From Saprospiraceae bacterium (lineage in GTDB: Bacteria; Bacteroidota; Bacteroidia; Chitinophagales; Saprospiraceae), in the NCBI GenBank assembly GCA_026996805.1, contig JALWKB010000188.1, positions 1 to 38,710 on the forward strand: a stretch of DNA of 38,710 nt, read 5' to 3'. The notes below the pieces were generated by a model. The model saw only the letters and a list, made by a program, of their open reading frames with translations, was not told where the DNA came from and ran no database searches. The position numbers were made by a program, and so were the translations under genes. How positions within the stretch are numbered: the first letter of the stretch is position 1; every line of letters starts with the position of its first letter. Positions 2,826 through 18,769 of the stretch are shown here, one piece after another.

Positions 2826-2833
2826 TACCTTTG
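2826..2833 (+). promoter_or_regulatory. -7 promoter box (TACCTTTG) of the vitamin B12 uptake operon
   Basis: TACCTTTG is a good match to TAnnTTTG. The predicted start, near 2840, coincides with the 5' arm of the closing helix of the cobalamin riboswitch, as expected if the riboswitch forms the 5' end of the mRNA. The 77 bases between the cytochrome stop and this box show nothing else apart from a pyrimidine-rich stretch. Confidence 0.65.
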
Positions 2834-2836
2834 CAC

Positions 2837-3070
2837 TTGCGACAGTACCTGTCTTCGGACAGGTGGAGCTCGACCGAAGGGAAGAGCGAAGAGGGAAATC
2901 CGTGAAAATCGGATACTGTACCCGCAGCTGTAAGCCCGCCGACAACTGTCGGTGCGCATGCATACAACCACTGTTCGATCGCGAACGGGAAGGGCATGCC
3001 AAGGGGCAAGTCAGAAGACCTGCTGTCGCAATGCTGTATCACCGCGCTTTCGGGAGTTAAGGCTCGGTGA
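2837..3070 (+). ncRNA. Cobalamin (vitamin B12) riboswitch with expression platform
   Basis: The conserved core is directly readable: GGGAAATCCGTGAAAATCG, then CTGTACCCGCAGCTGTAAGC, and the B12 box AGTCAGAAGACCTGC at 3009-3023. The closing helix is a perfect 9-bp pairing of TTGCGACAG (2837-2845) with CTGTCGCAA (3023-3031). Downstream, TCACCG (3039-3044) can pair with CGGTGA (3065-3070) around a 20-base loop, a likely part of the expression platform. There is no T-tract, so control is probably translational or through a kissing loop rather than by an intrinsic terminator; this part is inference. The switch precedes a TonB receptor and a BtuG-like lipoprotein, which fits repression of B12 uptake by adenosylcobalamin or another corrinoid. 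Confidence 0.95.
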
Positions 3071-5024: not shown

Positions 5025-6019
5025 TGCGTATGAAATGGTACATTTATTTCCCAATCCTTGCAATTATTACCTCCACCGTGACACTCCGTGCACAGATGGT
5101 GGCCGATTTCGAATCCCACGGGCTCGGTTTAGACACCTTCGCCAATGGAGCGGACAGCAGCAGCGGTTTTTGGGAGCCATCCGAGCAAGACAGCACTTTG
5201 TGGTTTCCAACCAAGTACAACTTTGAATACGGCTACTGGTCTGGAGGATGGGCGCTGTCAACGATGCGCGACGACACCACACGCGGGTATACCAACTTGT
5301 ATTCCGCCATCACAGCCGGCGGTGTGCAGTCCCCCACGTACGCCATCGGCCAGCAAGGCTCAAAAATACACGTGCGCTCCCTCTACGCACTCAAGCCCCT
5401 CTCCGTCTACATCACCAACACGACCTACGCTTACTGGAGCATGAAAGAGGGCGACCAGTTTGCCAAAAAATTTGGCGGTGACGATGGCACCGACCCCGAT
5501 TACTTCGTACTGCGTATCTACGGCTACAAAGACGGCCTAAAAGACACCATCCACTACGTCGAATTTTACCTGGCCGACTATCGCTTCGACGACAGCACCA
5601 AAGATTACATTGTCGACACGTGGACGCGCGTGGATCTGACACCTTTGGGCTATGTCGACAGCCTGGAGTTTGTGCTTAGCTCGTCCGATGTAGGACCCTA
5701 CGGCATCAACACCCCCCTGTTTTTCGCCATCGATAGCCTGACCTTCCAGGTGCAATCGACCTATGCCAGCATGGTGGAAAAGACCTTTGCCCTCCGCAGC
5801 TATCCCAACCCCGTTACGGATCAGCTGCATGTCGAAATACCGCAAACAGGTACCCTGACCATTGTCGATGCACAGGGGCGTCCGGTATGGCATAAAATCG
5901 TTGGCCGCGGAACACATCAGCTCTCCGTCCACCAGTGGACCAACGGGATGTACACCATACGCTATCGCCCACAAGACGGTACCCATATCTACTCGAAGCG
6001 CATAGTAAAATGGAGGTAA
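5024..6019 (+). CDS. DUF4465-family secreted protein with a T9SS sorting domain
   Basis: The 331-residue product starts with a Sec signal peptide (cleavage near LRAQ), followed by a domain that I read as DUF4465: ADFESHGLGLDTFANGAD, then a W-rich segment, then YFVLRIYGYKDG, FYLADYRFDD and DTWTRVDLTPLGYVDSLEFVLSSSD. The last 75 residues are a type A T9SS sorting domain: LRSYPNPVTDQLHVEIP, DAQGRPVWHK, and the ending WTNGMYTIRYRPQDG-KRIVKWR. It should therefore be displayed on the cell surface. DUF4465 proteins recur in Bacteroidota B12 loci, and surface cobalamin-binding proteins of gut Bacteroides (BtuH) are, as far as I recall, of this type; corrinoid binding here is inferred. An alternative start lies at the second Met, inside a GTATGAAAT repeat copy. 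Confidence 0.8.
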   Translation: MRMKWYIYFPILAIITSTVTLRAQMVADFESHGLGLDTFANGADSSSGFWEPSEQDSTLWFPTKYNFEYGYWSGGWALSTMRDDTTRGYTNLYSAITAGGVQSPTYAIGQQGSKIHVRSLYALKPLSVYITNTTYAYWSMKEGDQFAKKFGGDDGTDPDYFVLRIYGYKDGLKDTIHYVEFYLADYRFDDSTKDYIVDTWTRVDLTPLGYVDSLEFVLSSSDVGPYGINTPLFFAIDSLTFQVQSTYASMVEKTFALRSYPNPVTDQLHVEIPQTGTLTIVDAQGRPVWHKIVGRGTHQLSVHQWTNGMYTIRYRPQDGTHIYSKRIVKWR

Positions 6020-15841: not shown

Positions 15842-15859
15842 GACGAAAAGATTTTAACT

Positions 15860-15888
15860 CATCAAGCAACAACACACTTTGCCTGATG
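15860..15888 (-). promoter_or_regulatory. Hairpin in the rpsO-pnp intergenic RNA
   Basis: On the minus strand, CATCAGGCAA pairs with TTGCTTGATG (10 bp including one G-U) around a 9-base loop, 18 bases before the pnp start codon. In E. coli a hairpin in this same position is cut by RNase III and used by PNPase for autoregulation. A comparable role here is an inference from position and structure. A second small stem, CGCACA/TGTGCG (15954-15970), abuts the rpsO stop codon and could be a weak terminator. Confidence 0.45.
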
Positions 15889-15970
15889 CTTCTCCAATCC
15901 CGGGCTGTTACGGAGCTATGGCTGGGGGTATGCCTATCGACCAAACAAGCAATCGCACAAAAGCTGTGCG

Positions 15971-16639: not shown

Positions 16640-17122
16640 TTATTCCTTGTACACCCTTCCTCGAAGGTAGAAAAAACGCCGCTTCGGCTTTGCATGCAAA
16701 TATAACTCTACTTTTTTGACAAATGTGCCCGTGTCCAGCATATCGGTGTACAGGTGAATGGGTATGACTCCACCCTCCTGCGGATAAAATACCTCCTTCG
16801 GACATTCCGAAGTCGTACAACCACATTCTGCCTTGCACTGTAAGACGACGATCGGCGCATCCCCCTCCACTGAAAAGGGCACCTCTATGCGCACCTGCTT
16901 ACCAACAGGCACATCACCAATGTCCAGCGTATCTTGCGCCAACACCATTGTCCCCACGGGATCTTCAGCATCGGGATCCGACAGCGTTGCGCGCATCTCT
17001 ACCAGCTCCGACAGTGGGTGTCGATCCGACTTGACGCGTATCCGATATCCCTCACGACATGCCAACAACACACCCATCATCAAAAGACCCAATAATCCCA
17101 AATTACAACACCTTCGCAACAT
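16640..17122 (-). CDS. DUF1573 lipoprotein
   Basis: The 160-residue product begins with a lipoprotein signal (LLMMGVLLAC, Cys22). It contains the DUF1573 pattern: DTLDIGDVPVGKQVRIEVPF, then CKAECGCTTSECPKE with a cluster of cysteines, then a second beta strand set ending FFYLRGRVYKE. DUF1573 is an immunoglobulin-like (ASPM-SPD-2-Hydin related) envelope domain that is abundant in Bacteroidota and of unknown biochemical function. It precedes yajC at close spacing, a recurrent arrangement. No TAnnTTTG box is evident in the 100 bases ahead of it. Confidence 0.85.
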   Translation of the reverse strand: MLRRCCNLGLLGLLMMGVLLACREGYRIRVKSDRHPLSELVEMRATLSDPDAEDPVGTMVLAQDTLDIGDVPVGKQVRIEVPFSVEGDAPIVVLQCKAECGCTTSECPKEVFYPQEGGVIPIHLYTDMLDTGTFVKKVELYLHAKPKRRFFYLRGRVYKE

Positions 17123-17312
17123 CGTATGTCGAAGTTATTCAAACTCTTCAATAGCTCAAAGGGCCCAAAGCCGATTATGTTCACCTACCCTCCAACATTT
17201 CACACATTGCTCTAATATGTATAAAATGGTACGATTTTGGTGATACATTTCTGTGTCAAGGGACAAAGGACATATGAAAAAACCATGAATATAAAAAATC
17301 ATCGCCTATTGC
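17123..17312. other. Intergenic region between divergent units
   Basis: There is no gene I can support here. It contains one plus-oriented repeat copy, GTATAAAATGGTACGAT (17219-17235), followed by ATTTTGGTGATAC, which makes a loose inverted arrangement. Two degenerate ATTTCACAC-like words are also present. A frame beginning near 17237 has no start context and no family features. Confidence 0.4.
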
Positions 17313-17343
17313 TTTGTCAATCTACCCATCCGCCGTACCTTTG
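17313..17343 (+). promoter_or_regulatory. Full Bacteroidota promoter, TTTG-N19-TACCTTTG
   Basis: TTTG at 17313-17316 and TACCTTTG at 17336-17343 are separated by exactly 19 bases, the consensus geometry of the primary Bacteroidota promoter (TTTG, 19-21 bases, TAnnTTTG). Start of transcription is expected near 17350. It is the only promoter in the window where I find both boxes well matched. Confidence 0.75.
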
Positions 17344-17349
17344 CGGTAC

Positions 17350-17412
17350 CCCAGCGAACCGATCGCACAGCATCGAGAGTCTAAAAGGAGCTATGCCTTT
17401 TAGACTTTTTTA
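17350..17412 (+). ncRNA. Candidate short transcript: small RNA or attenuated leader
   Basis: A strong promoter directs transcription into an intrinsic terminator only about 60 bases downstream, and no protein gene lies between. The predicted RNA begins near ACCCCAGCG and ends in the T-tract of the hairpin. It could be a free-standing small RNA, or a leader whose termination controls read-through into the 30-residue ORF and the transhydrogenase genes. I recognise no known RNA family. Ends are predictions from promoter and terminator positions. Confidence 0.5.
17378..17411 (+). terminator. Intrinsic terminator or attenuator, perfect 11-bp stem
   Basis: AGTCTAAAAGG (17378-17388) pairs without mismatch to CCTTTTAGACT (17396-17406) around the loop AGCTATG, followed directly by a T-run and TATTTT. 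No plus-strand gene precedes it within this unit, and the minus-strand gene reads away from it, so it cannot be the terminator of an annotated gene. Confidence 0.8.
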
Positions 17413-17440
17413 TTTTATACCCATTCGGTCTTTTACATAG
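17393..17440 (+). CDS. Possible 15-residue leader peptide overlapping the terminator
   Basis: AAAAGGAG followed by ATG in the hairpin loop looks like a ribosome-binding site and start. The frame encodes MPFRLFYFIPIRSFT and stops at TAG. Four of 15 residues are Phe. If translated, ribosomes would open the terminator stem, allowing translation-dependent attenuation. Shine-Dalgarno use is weak in Bacteroidota and the peptide may be chance, so confidence is low. Confidence 0.25.
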   Translation: MPFRLFYFIPIRSFT

Positions 17441-17464
17441 TGCATTGAATTAATCACAATCGTC

Positions 17465-17557
17465 ATGCTCATTGTATTGATTGTGTTTTTGATACTCGTC
17501 ATCACCTTTCTTCCCCTTGTACTTTGGCCTGGGAAAAAGGGCAGGAGGATTTACTGA
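17465..17557 (+). CDS. Possible 30-residue single-span membrane microprotein
   Basis: An ATG opens a 30-residue frame: a continuous hydrophobic stretch (MLIVLIVFLILVITFLPLVL) followed by WPGKKGRRIY and TGA. A positively charged tail after one helix fits an inner-membrane microprotein with N-out/C-in orientation. It lies after the attenuator-like hairpin and before the transhydrogenase promoter box, on the same strand. I do not recognise the sequence. The composition argues that it is not random, but such a short frame needs conservation or translation evidence. Confidence 0.4.
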   Translation: MLIVLIVFLILVITFLPLVLWPGKKGRRIY

Positions 17558-17600
17558 TGCCCCACTACGAAGCTGAGGTGATCGTTGTCTTAAGTATGCG

Positions 17601-17608
17601 TATCTTTG
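17601..17608 (+). promoter_or_regulatory. -7 promoter box (TATCTTTG) for the transhydrogenase genes
   Basis: TATCTTTG fits TAnnTTTG and lies 30 bases before the ATG of pntA. Transcription from about 17615 would give a leader of roughly 24 bases. The -33 region is not convincing. Confidence 0.55.
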
Positions 17609-17638
17609 CCGTCGTTTTAGAGGCGAATTATCGTGACC

Positions 17639-18769
17639 ATGGTCATAGGAGTATTACACGAACCCTCCCAAGAGACGCGCGTTGCCCTGGTGCCCGATGA
17701 GGTGGAAAAGTTGCGACAACTCGATGTCGAGGCAGTTTGGGTAGAAAGCGGTTCTGGCCAAGGGGCATTTTACAGTGATGAAGACTATCGATTGAAGGGA
17801 GCTGAAATAAAAGGGCGCAGTGAGATTTTGGCGCAGGCCGATATCGTCATTGGCATCTTTCCTCCCAAGCCAGATGAATTGGATGCACTGCGGCCCGAGA
17901 CGGCCCTCATTGCGCAGTTTGACCCCCTGCGCCACAAAGACTGGATCGATATCCTGGTGTCCAAAAACCTGACGAGTTTTAGCATGGATTTGATACCACG
18001 CACCACGCGTGCCCAATCCATGGACGTACTCTCGTCGCAGGCATCGGTAGCGGGATACGTCTCTGTACTTTTGGCGGGGTCGATGCTTCCGCGTTTCATG
18101 CCGTTGATGATGACCGCTGCCGGCACCATCAAACCGGCGAAAGTATTGGTATTGGGCGCTGGCGTAGCGGGGCTACAAGCCATTGCCACGGCTCGGCGCT
18201 TAGGCGCAACAGTGGAGGCGTTTGACGTGCGCAAAGCAGCAAAAGAAGAAGTGCTCAGCCTGGGAGCTAAATTTATCGAAGTGGAGGGTGCACGCGACGA
18301 AGAGACCGCCGGCGGTTATGCCGTCGAACAAAGCGAAGAATTCCTCAGGCGCCAAAAGGCCATGGTCCAGGAACACGCATCCCGTGCCGACATCCTCATC
18401 ACTACCGCCCAGATACCCGGACGCCCGGCACCCAAACTCGTCACCGAAGACACCGTCCGAAACATGCCCAAAGGCGCAGTAATCGTCGACATGGCTGCCG
18501 CCACAGGCGGCAACTGCGCCCTGACCGAAGACGGCAAGACCATCAACGTCGATGGCGTGACACTCATCGGTGATTCCTACCTGCCGCGACGCCTTCCACA
18601 AGACGCATCGCGCATGTACAGCCGCAACATCTTCGCATTTGTAAAACTCCTCATCTCCGAAGGAACGCTGCACCTCAACTTCGAAGACGATATCGTGCAA
18701 GCTACTTGCTTGACACATAGTGGTAAAGTCGTCAGCCAGCGCGTACGTCAATTTCACCAAATCGATTGA
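17639..18769 (+). CDS. pntA: NAD(P) transhydrogenase subunit alpha part 1 (PntAA)
   Basis: The 376-residue cytoplasmic domain I binds NAD(H). The start MVIGVLHEPSQETRVALVPDEV matches the family N-terminus; an in-frame GTG two codons earlier is possible. Family signatures are the RVALVP segment, QASVAGYVSVL, and the Rossmann motif VLGAGVAGLQAIATARRLGATVEAFDVR. The protein stops after domain I, so the alpha subunit is split as in Rhodospirillum-type enzymes rather than fused as in E. coli. The membrane helices are encoded by the next gene, 3 bases downstream. Together the complex couples hydride transfer from NADH to NADP+ with proton entry, supplying NADPH. Confidence 0.94.
   Translation: MVIGVLHEPSQETRVALVPDEVEKLRQLDVEAVWVESGSGQGAFYSDEDYRLKGAEIKGRSEILAQADIVIGIFPPKPDELDALRPETALIAQFDPLRHKDWIDILVSKNLTSFSMDLIPRTTRAQSMDVLSSQASVAGYVSVLLAGSMLPRFMPLMMTAAGTIKPAKVLVLGAGVAGLQAIATARRLGATVEAFDVRKAAKEEVLSLGAKFIEVEGARDEETAGGYAVEQSEEFLRRQKAMVQEHASRADILITTAQIPGRPAPKLVTEDTVRNMPKGAVIVDMAAATGGNCALTEDGKTINVDGVTLIGDSYLPRRLPQDASRMYSRNIFAFVKLLISEGTLHLNFEDDIVQATCLTHSGKVVSQRVRQFHQID

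Follow-up and report, generated by a model that had tools for sequence, protein, structure and literature searches.

A promoter that runs straight into an intrinsic terminator, with no gene between the two, raises the question of whether such a locus makes an RNA of its own or controls the genes that follow it. We examined a case of this kind in a Saprospiraceae bacterium, upstream of the transhydrogenase gene pntA. An earlier reading made from the DNA letters alone (the sequence-only reading) had named two possible outcomes, a short RNA of about 60 nt or a leader attenuator of a 30-residue ORF and possibly of the transhydrogenase genes. The window, meaning the whole stretch of DNA that was analysed, is a contig (C188) of 38,710 nt from a genome of 2.45 Mb in 244 contigs, labelled G000 here; G001 is the sole other genome of the genus that was compared. 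The features of the locus, by window position, are as follows.

16640 to 17122, minus strand: DUF1573 protein gene, the divergent left neighbour of RNA A
17313 to 17316, plus strand: TTTG, the -33 element of the RNA A promoter, a sequence match conserved in G001
17336 to 17343, plus strand: TACCTTTG, the -7 element of the RNA A promoter, a sequence match conserved in G001
17348 to 17414, plus strand: RNA A, a predicted small RNA of ~67 nt, with +1 set at A17348 by the -12 to -5 rule and the 3' end in the T-run
17354 to 17366, plus strand: weak 4-bp hairpin (GCGA/UCGC) in the 5' part of RNA A, from the fold
17375 to 17409, plus strand: intrinsic terminator stem-loop of RNA A, 11 perfect pairs, 14 with flanking pairs
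17406 to 17418, plus strand: T-rich terminator tail, directly after which conservation with G001 ends
17639 to 18769, plus strand: pntA (AlaDh_PNT domains), the next large plus-strand gene

The signals described in the sequence-only reading are present as it gave them. TTTG, a 19-base spacer and the TACCTTTG box were verified base for base; 3' of them lie the 11-bp perfect stem (17378-17388 with 17396-17406) and its T-run, no plus-strand gene occupies the interval, and the left neighbour is on the opposite strand. Its start near 17350 was about right, since the position reported for the TAnnTTTG box in Flavobacterium, -12 to -5 (PMC9723704), would place +1 at A17348, in which case predicted RNA A starts with ACCCCAGCGAACCGAUCG. 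The full promoter pattern, allowing a spacer of 17-21, occurs twice in the window, where shuffled sequence leads one to expect 0.34 (3 of 100 shuffles reach two), and the second copy stands immediately 5' of rpsO. As other TAnnTTTG boxes of the window precede a cobalamin riboswitch and a tRNA gene, we regard the box as a good promoter signal in this DNA. (The riboswitch, RF00174, and the TACCTTTG box before it occupy 2826-3040.)

The terminator stem, paired in 11 of 11 positions around a 7-nt loop, is with its flanking pairs (14) the longest among 13 terminator-like sites between 15500 and 19500, where 3.9 sites are expected, and the fold of 17350-17418 reaches -21.1 kcal/mol (z -4.8), a value equalled by 1 of 200 shuffles. 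Predicted RNA A contains no ORF and has no ATG 5' of the stem; a short ATG frame that starts in the loop is lost in G001, where, judged by eye, ATG becomes TTG and the frame diverges past the tail. The sequence-only reading had recognised no RNA family, and Rfam likewise gave no convincing match at the A locus: over the window only the cobalamin riboswitch and tRNA exceeded the gathering threshold, and a lax threshold applied to 17120-17660 returned two matches, both far under their cut-offs.

How selective this arrangement is can be judged from a sample of 243,987 bases of the genome (20 stretches plus the window), which holds 7 full promoters with 18-20 spacing and 37 terminators of at least 8 pairs. 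Full promoter and terminator (at least 8 pairs) fall within 110 nt of each other in two cases, unit A and a tRNA-Asp gene, and a third promoter-terminator pair has the -7 box only. The tRNA-Asp unit (L106, 9978-9831, minus strand; ARAGORN) carries full promoter, tRNA and terminator and serves as the positive control. Within this sample, the rule of a full promoter and then a terminator selects stable-RNA units.

Comparison with G001 gave the locus sharp edges. The promoter is identical at 29/31 positions, 17344-17374 at 30/31, the stem-loop at 34/35 and the tail at 9/10; taken together, 64 of 66 bases are identical over 17344-17409 and 70 of 71 over predicted RNA A plus tail (17348-17418). The flanks have diverged, with 22/45 (49%) identical in the spacer 17420-17464 and 24/43 in 17558-17600, and the third codon positions of pntA are identical at 286/376 (76%). 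The conserved block begins near the -33 element and ends at the end of the T-tail, and because promoter, RNA body and T-tail form one sharp-ended block, A is in shape an independent transcription unit. Since coding sequence and the pnp-rpsO region contain equally conserved windows, the weight of this evidence lies in how sharply the block differs from its flanks. The sole change within RNA A lies in the loop (A to T) and leaves the stem intact. Stem conservation in close relatives had been proposed as a check on the RNA; the 35 bases of the stem-loop show a single substitution, located in the loop, so the RNA is not refuted by this weak test with a single relative, and since A is carried by two genomes only, no covariation is visible in its stem.

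The short RNA that the sequence-only reading predicted is thus supported by a sharp-ended conserved block of promoter, body and tail, at a predicted ~67 nt. In our judgement 17313-17418 is very probably a free-standing small-RNA gene, RNA A, which appears to combine its own primary-sigma promoter, an intrinsic terminator and a conserved body between diverged flanks, as a Bacteroidota-type small RNA gene should. Conserved sequence also occurs in two other spacers of the window. Upstream of DUF1573, 28 bases at 17219-17246 are identical in G001 (by eye) within an otherwise diverged spacer, a possible regulatory site of the DUF1573 operon; the rpsO-pnp spacer (15842-15970) is identical at 119/129 positions and has at its end a short, perfectly paired hairpin, CGCACAAAAGCTGTGCG, a possible processing or control site.

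RNA A has a narrow distribution. A DNA search of 298 family genomes gave, among the matches listed, a best E of 5.6e-4 outside the genus, and the listed non-genus matches were short and mostly over the terminator; those to the 5' part of A in G165 and G065 turned out to be the complement of a second RNA, B, described below. One exact match (G002) to an A-like string occurred outside the genus among the 298 genomes. With a covariance model of A, the two genus members among 199 family genomes scored 107 and 106.6 bits and all others at most 35 bits. Eighteen non-genus loci of this search were opened and 15 positioned (L076, L077 and L089 were dropped, their flanks being cut); none of the 15 had a promoter box at the right position or, by eye, the 5' part of A. 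Within the genomes sampled, A appears to be found only in the genus.

With what might such an RNA pair? A complement search of both genus genomes found an exact 16-nt partner of its 5' end, GATCGGTTCGCTGGGG, located at G000:C169:5955-5970 and in the corresponding position of G001; this match had first appeared at E 0.19 in the DNA search with A. The target site lies outside genes, in the terminator hairpin of B, where it takes in the 5' arm and the loop; the corresponding segment of A is the following.

17349 to 17364, plus strand: predicted pairing segment CCCCAGCGAACCGATC, +2 to +17 of RNA A, fully complementary to B over its loop and 5' arm (G000:C169:5955-5970)

Under an order-3 Markov model from 264 kb, the exact 16-mer sites expected per genome number 0.015 for any 16-mer in the first 27 nt of A and 0.0007 for the pairing segment itself. 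For the 20 remaining TAnnTTTG boxes in the window, the start regions have runs of complementarity to B of at most 8 nt. The duplex energy of the whole RNAs, -50.3, was matched by 1/500 shuffles of A and 0/500 of B. After the cost of opening both RNAs, the net energy is -13.9 kcal/mol, a value reached by 12/400 dinucleotide and 13/400 mononucleotide shuffles of the 5' 27 nt of A and by 9/800 random genome segments; this test is modest, and we count it against the interaction. We also count against it that the match came out of a scan and was assessed after the fact, that pairing is costly in that the 12-bp terminator hairpin of B must open, and that the entire 5' part of A is conserved in G001, beyond the pairing segment alone. 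The complementarity has the extent to be looked for in a sponge, 16 exact nt in both genomes against what is a putative RNA. Complements of the A linker, GCACAGCATCGAGAG, gave no string shared by both genomes except A's own, pairing with the pnt leader was equalled by 196/200 shuffles (5' part) and 81/200 (whole RNA), and pairing with the DUF1573 leader by 46/200 and 14/200, respectively.

B, in the window's genome, is an orphan unit of ~90 nt (L111, on G000:C169, 5877-5998) whose terminator hairpin reads CGAGATCGGTTC GCTGGGGGGCT GAACCGGTCTCG and is followed by T9. Upstream stands TTGGCACGGTATTGGCA, a GG-N10-GC arrangement that we take to be the -24/-12 form of a sigma54 promoter. Sigma54 promoters are present in Bacteroidota (PMC9723704), and rpoN scored above cut-off in both genus genomes. 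From promoter to T-run the B block is near-identical in G000 and G001, and its flanks differ. Its neighbours in G000 are a cas9-like gene on one side and a DPP IV-like peptidase gene on the other. The cas9-like gene (1431-5645 of L111, minus strand) encodes 1404 aa with RuvC_III and HNH_4 domains; divergent from it, at ~5655-5780 on the plus strand, is a promoter-terminator unit that looks tracrRNA-like by eye, and the first 20 kb of this contig held no direct repeats of at least 24 nt and no visible array. At G000:C38, 23 nt match B exactly, inside a long opposite-strand ORF; this site was set aside.

Matches to B at E <= 0.05 occurred in 27 of 199 family genomes, many of them weak or not B. 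We built a model from nine full-hairpin sequences among the best matches (E up to 2.9e-4, genus members included) and dropped the rest. At E <= 0.01 this model found B in at least 33 of 348 order-sampled genomes, all 33 in the window's family, a lower bound in that at most 10 first-look candidates were scored per genome, and with the out-of-family share of the 348 unstated; G170 had three matches and G234 two. The alignment (A6) holds 34 copies (33 distinct), namely 25 new loci and the original nine, five loci being duplicates and six matches having no locus. The -24 TGGC is present in 34/34 copies and the -12 GC in 22/34, in a sample that leans towards these elements as they lie inside the model. 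In the loop, the longest run of G measures 6 in 22 copies, 5 in 7 and 4 in 5. In the stem, 98.8% of cells are paired and 8 of 11 pairs have changed on both sides; none of 500 shuffles was as high in paired share or covariation score, 2/500 reached the number of both-side-changed pairs and 48/500 the number of further pair types, and slid versions of the alignment scored far lower, all in an alignment fitted to the structure, which bears on the test.

No Rfam family reached the gathering threshold in B loci L125, L133, L111 and L167-L177, and a lax threshold at L212, L218, L219 and L230 returned one tRNA and weak matches away from B. The neighbours of B vary across the 16 loci inspected. An HSP90-type gene stands on its left in six (five with the Pfam HSP90-like ATPase domain, L215 by eye), a SurA-like gene on its right in four (SurA domain matches in L214, L215 and L219, above cut-off only in L219, and none in L212), a PpiC-type rotamase gene beside it in one, and an Lnt-like gene on its left in three, two of which were tested and both confirmed. 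Before htpG itself, a search for the sigma54 pattern in six loci gave one poor match and otherwise nothing. Since its neighbours differ among genera, B looks free-standing rather than the leader of one gene. We infer that B is a Saprospiraceae small-RNA family with a sigma54-like promoter and a G4-G6 terminator loop, with no Rfam match in the loci scanned; within the genomes sampled it appears only in this family.

Promoter and terminator signals, conservation, complementarity, the B family with its stem covariation and the presence of rpoN were all computed; from them we infer transcription, pairing in the cell, and the direction and outcome of that pairing. RNA polymerase with the primary sigma factor would start near A17348 and halt in the T-run, yielding an RNA of ~67 nt whose 5' end (ACCCCAG...) is exposed and which carries a terminator hairpin. 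CCCCAGC of A would then contact the exposed loop of B, GCUGGGG, through seven pairs that require no stem to open. The next nine bases of A, GAACCGAUC, equal the 3' arm of B, GAACCGGUC, except for one base, and would let the helix move into the B stem. B would be captured or destroyed, and A would act as a sponge that lowers its activity. Possibly B is a stress RNA that A restrains, a role suggested by the htpG-like and surA-like genes that adjoin B in several genera and by the sigma54 regulon of Flavobacterium.

On balance we favour an interaction of A with B in which A antagonises, or sponges, B. More tentatively, and as a possibility that we would not call likely, A might be a genus-specific decoy of the terminator 3' arm that silences an undescribed, family-wide, sigma54-driven small RNA with a G-run loop, the noncoding arm of the Bacteroidota sigma54 envelope and chaperone stress response. 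The sigmaE-driven small RNAs of enterobacteria have a role comparable to that proposed here for a sigma54 noncoding arm.

Beyond the genus, net energies of A with the B of genera lacking a found A range from -15.0 to -15.4 in four of seven and are weaker in three, and as A is predicted to pair equally well with the B of such genera, no co-evolution of A and B is shown. Among 32 non-genus copies of B, the stretch complementary to A is 14-16 nt in 6, 11 nt in 1 and 4-9 nt in 25 (at most 6 nt in a reversed control); in the subset of these genomes searched for A it was not found, so these complements reflect the conservation of B itself. A could instead be an ordinary intergenic small RNA whose 5' end acts on unspecified mRNAs, with the complement in B a product of chance. 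This is the most serious competitor, though on present evidence rather an unlikely one. All the evidence for an RNA gene holds without B, the control on the A:B energy is modest, and any G-rich loop will pair with C-rich 5' ends. Other near-complements of A exist, with 9 and 11 sites within 3 mismatches in the two genomes (A and B included, neighbourhoods roughly read) versus 1 and 4 for the reversed sequence, an excess that may stem from base composition. What chance explains poorly is that 16 exact bases, with 0.015 expected per genome, should, in each of the two genomes, coincide with the loop and arm of a conserved RNA.

Regulation of the genes downstream comes next. RNA from the promoter at 17313 would mostly stop at ~17411, and regulated read-through would yield the mRNA of a 30-residue membrane peptide, possibly with pntA. 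We consider this improbable. The argument turns on two features that lie beyond the A terminator.

17465 to 17557, plus strand: 30-residue hydrophobic ORF, a neighbour of RNA A and outside it, conserved in G001
17601 to 17608, plus strand: separate -7 box TATCTTTG before the transhydrogenase operon, conserved in G001

The ORF speaks for read-through. It is identical to its G001 counterpart at 86/93 bases, with 4 synonymous changes on 21.7 sites and 3 nonsynonymous on 68.3 (pN/pS 0.24 on 7 changes), and is probably coding. Between the terminator and its ATG there is no TAnnTTTG box; the sole E. coli-type promoter match in that interval, 17432-17460, is of a kind that occurs at background frequency. 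As the ORF has no visible promoter of the local type, leaky read-through into it is possible. The peptide is hydrophobic with a basic end (MLIVLIVFLILVITFLPLVLWPGKKGRRIY) and has no Pfam match; in 100 genomes its best match outside the genus had E 0.07, and it was found only in the genus.

The evidence around pntA points the other way. The TATCTTTG box ends 30 bases before pntA, and 17601-17638 is identical to G001 at 38/38 positions; a TAnnTTTG box also stands 34-63 nt before the match start in 6 of 37 other pntA loci. The sequence-only reading had called for pntA upstream regions to be aligned among relatives. In a scan of 38 loci, G001 included, an orphan promoter-terminator unit like A was present in 0 of the 37 other upstream regions, among which some may represent one species twice and a few have fewer than 1500 bases upstream. 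L037/L038, a candidate for a second such unit before pntA, was rejected, as its box lies inside coding sequence and its terminator belongs to an upstream plus-strand gene. The alternative antiterminator pairing that had been envisaged was sought in the 5' part of A, and none that opens the terminator was found; when the terminator helix is disallowed, the fold of the leader to 17560 loses 10 kcal/mol of stability. Nor does a leader peptide precede the stem, and the spacer from terminator to ORF is the unconserved one noted above (22/45). Of the outcomes first proposed, then, the short RNA stands, and attenuation of pntA by the A promoter and terminator is not supported by these comparisons: pntA has a conserved promoter box of its own, no opening pairing is seen, and no other pntA locus carries the unit.

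Less probable by a little, A could act on the B gene by mimicking the 3' arm of its terminator, thereby blocking termination and sending transcription into the peptidase gene (G000:C169:6067-8259). The geometry allows it, since the pairing segment spans the 5' arm and loop of the B terminator and the peptidase ORF starts ~70 nt beyond. Against this, other genera have different genes after B, often on the opposite strand, B looks free-standing, and invasion of the nascent RNA must beat an intramolecular hairpin. A type I toxin-antitoxin pair of A and the 30-residue peptide, suggested by a small hydrophobic, basic-ended peptide adjoining a small RNA, is scarcely credible, given that A and the ORF share a strand with no antisense overlap, that their pairing is matched by 102/200 shuffles (5' part) and 114/200 (whole RNA), and that the ORF has no further copy in the genome at E <= 0.2. 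We return to the proposed sponging of B by A in comparing the two RNAs with known systems.

In the open-licence literature on Saprospiraceae small RNAs, sigma54-dependent small RNAs, Bacteroides sponges, RNAs with G-rich terminator loops and pntA leaders, as far as our partial coverage of it extends, we found no description of A or B. RepG of Helicobacter pylori reportedly acts through its terminator loop. Its targets are G-repeats in an mRNA leader (PMC8295292); B would resemble it in a homopolymer-type RNA recognition and differ in carrying the G-run in its own loop. The pntA motif WRC-36-2, known from Streptomyces only with 11 representatives, covers the Shine-Dalgarno region (PMC11109978). 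Like it, A is a structured RNA 5' of pntA; unlike it, A ends well before the pntA promoter box. The sigma54 regulon of Flavobacterium psychrophilum comprises chaperone genes, HtpG among them, and envelope-stress genes (PMC9723704), and B, with its sigma54-like promoter and its htpG-like and surA-like neighbours in several genera, recalls that regulon, whose account, in the portions consulted, names no sigma54-driven small RNA like B (PMC9723704). As a conserved small-RNA class with a sigma54-like promoter, B would make an RNA arm of the sigma54 stress response testable.

A parallel to the proposed pairing is that of CjNC140 and CjNC110 of Campylobacter jejuni, which bind each other through CU-rich and GA-rich elements, as seen by gel shift, in what is proposed to be a sponge (PMC10470494). 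A and B are likewise two small RNAs with complementary elements and a proposed sponge relation; the Campylobacter contact joins hairpin to hairpin, whereas that of A and B is computed and joins a linear 5' end to a terminator loop, and we claim no relation in sequence (PMC10470494). Few trans-acting RNAs with known partners have been reported in Bacteroides (PMC7366714). If the interaction is real, A and B would be a naturally occurring case of one small RNA sponging another in Bacteroidota, one in which the two RNAs and the bases that pair are specified. GibS of Bacteroides thetaiotaomicron, of 145 nt, has a PM2-type promoter and experimentally supported mRNA targets (PMC7366714). A differs from it in its length of ~67 nt, its canonical promoter and a candidate partner that is itself a small RNA. 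By description rather than by sequence, A would resemble GibS as an intergenic Bacteroidota small RNA with a transcription start of its own, an intrinsic terminator and a conserved, exposed 5' end for pairing (PMC7366714).
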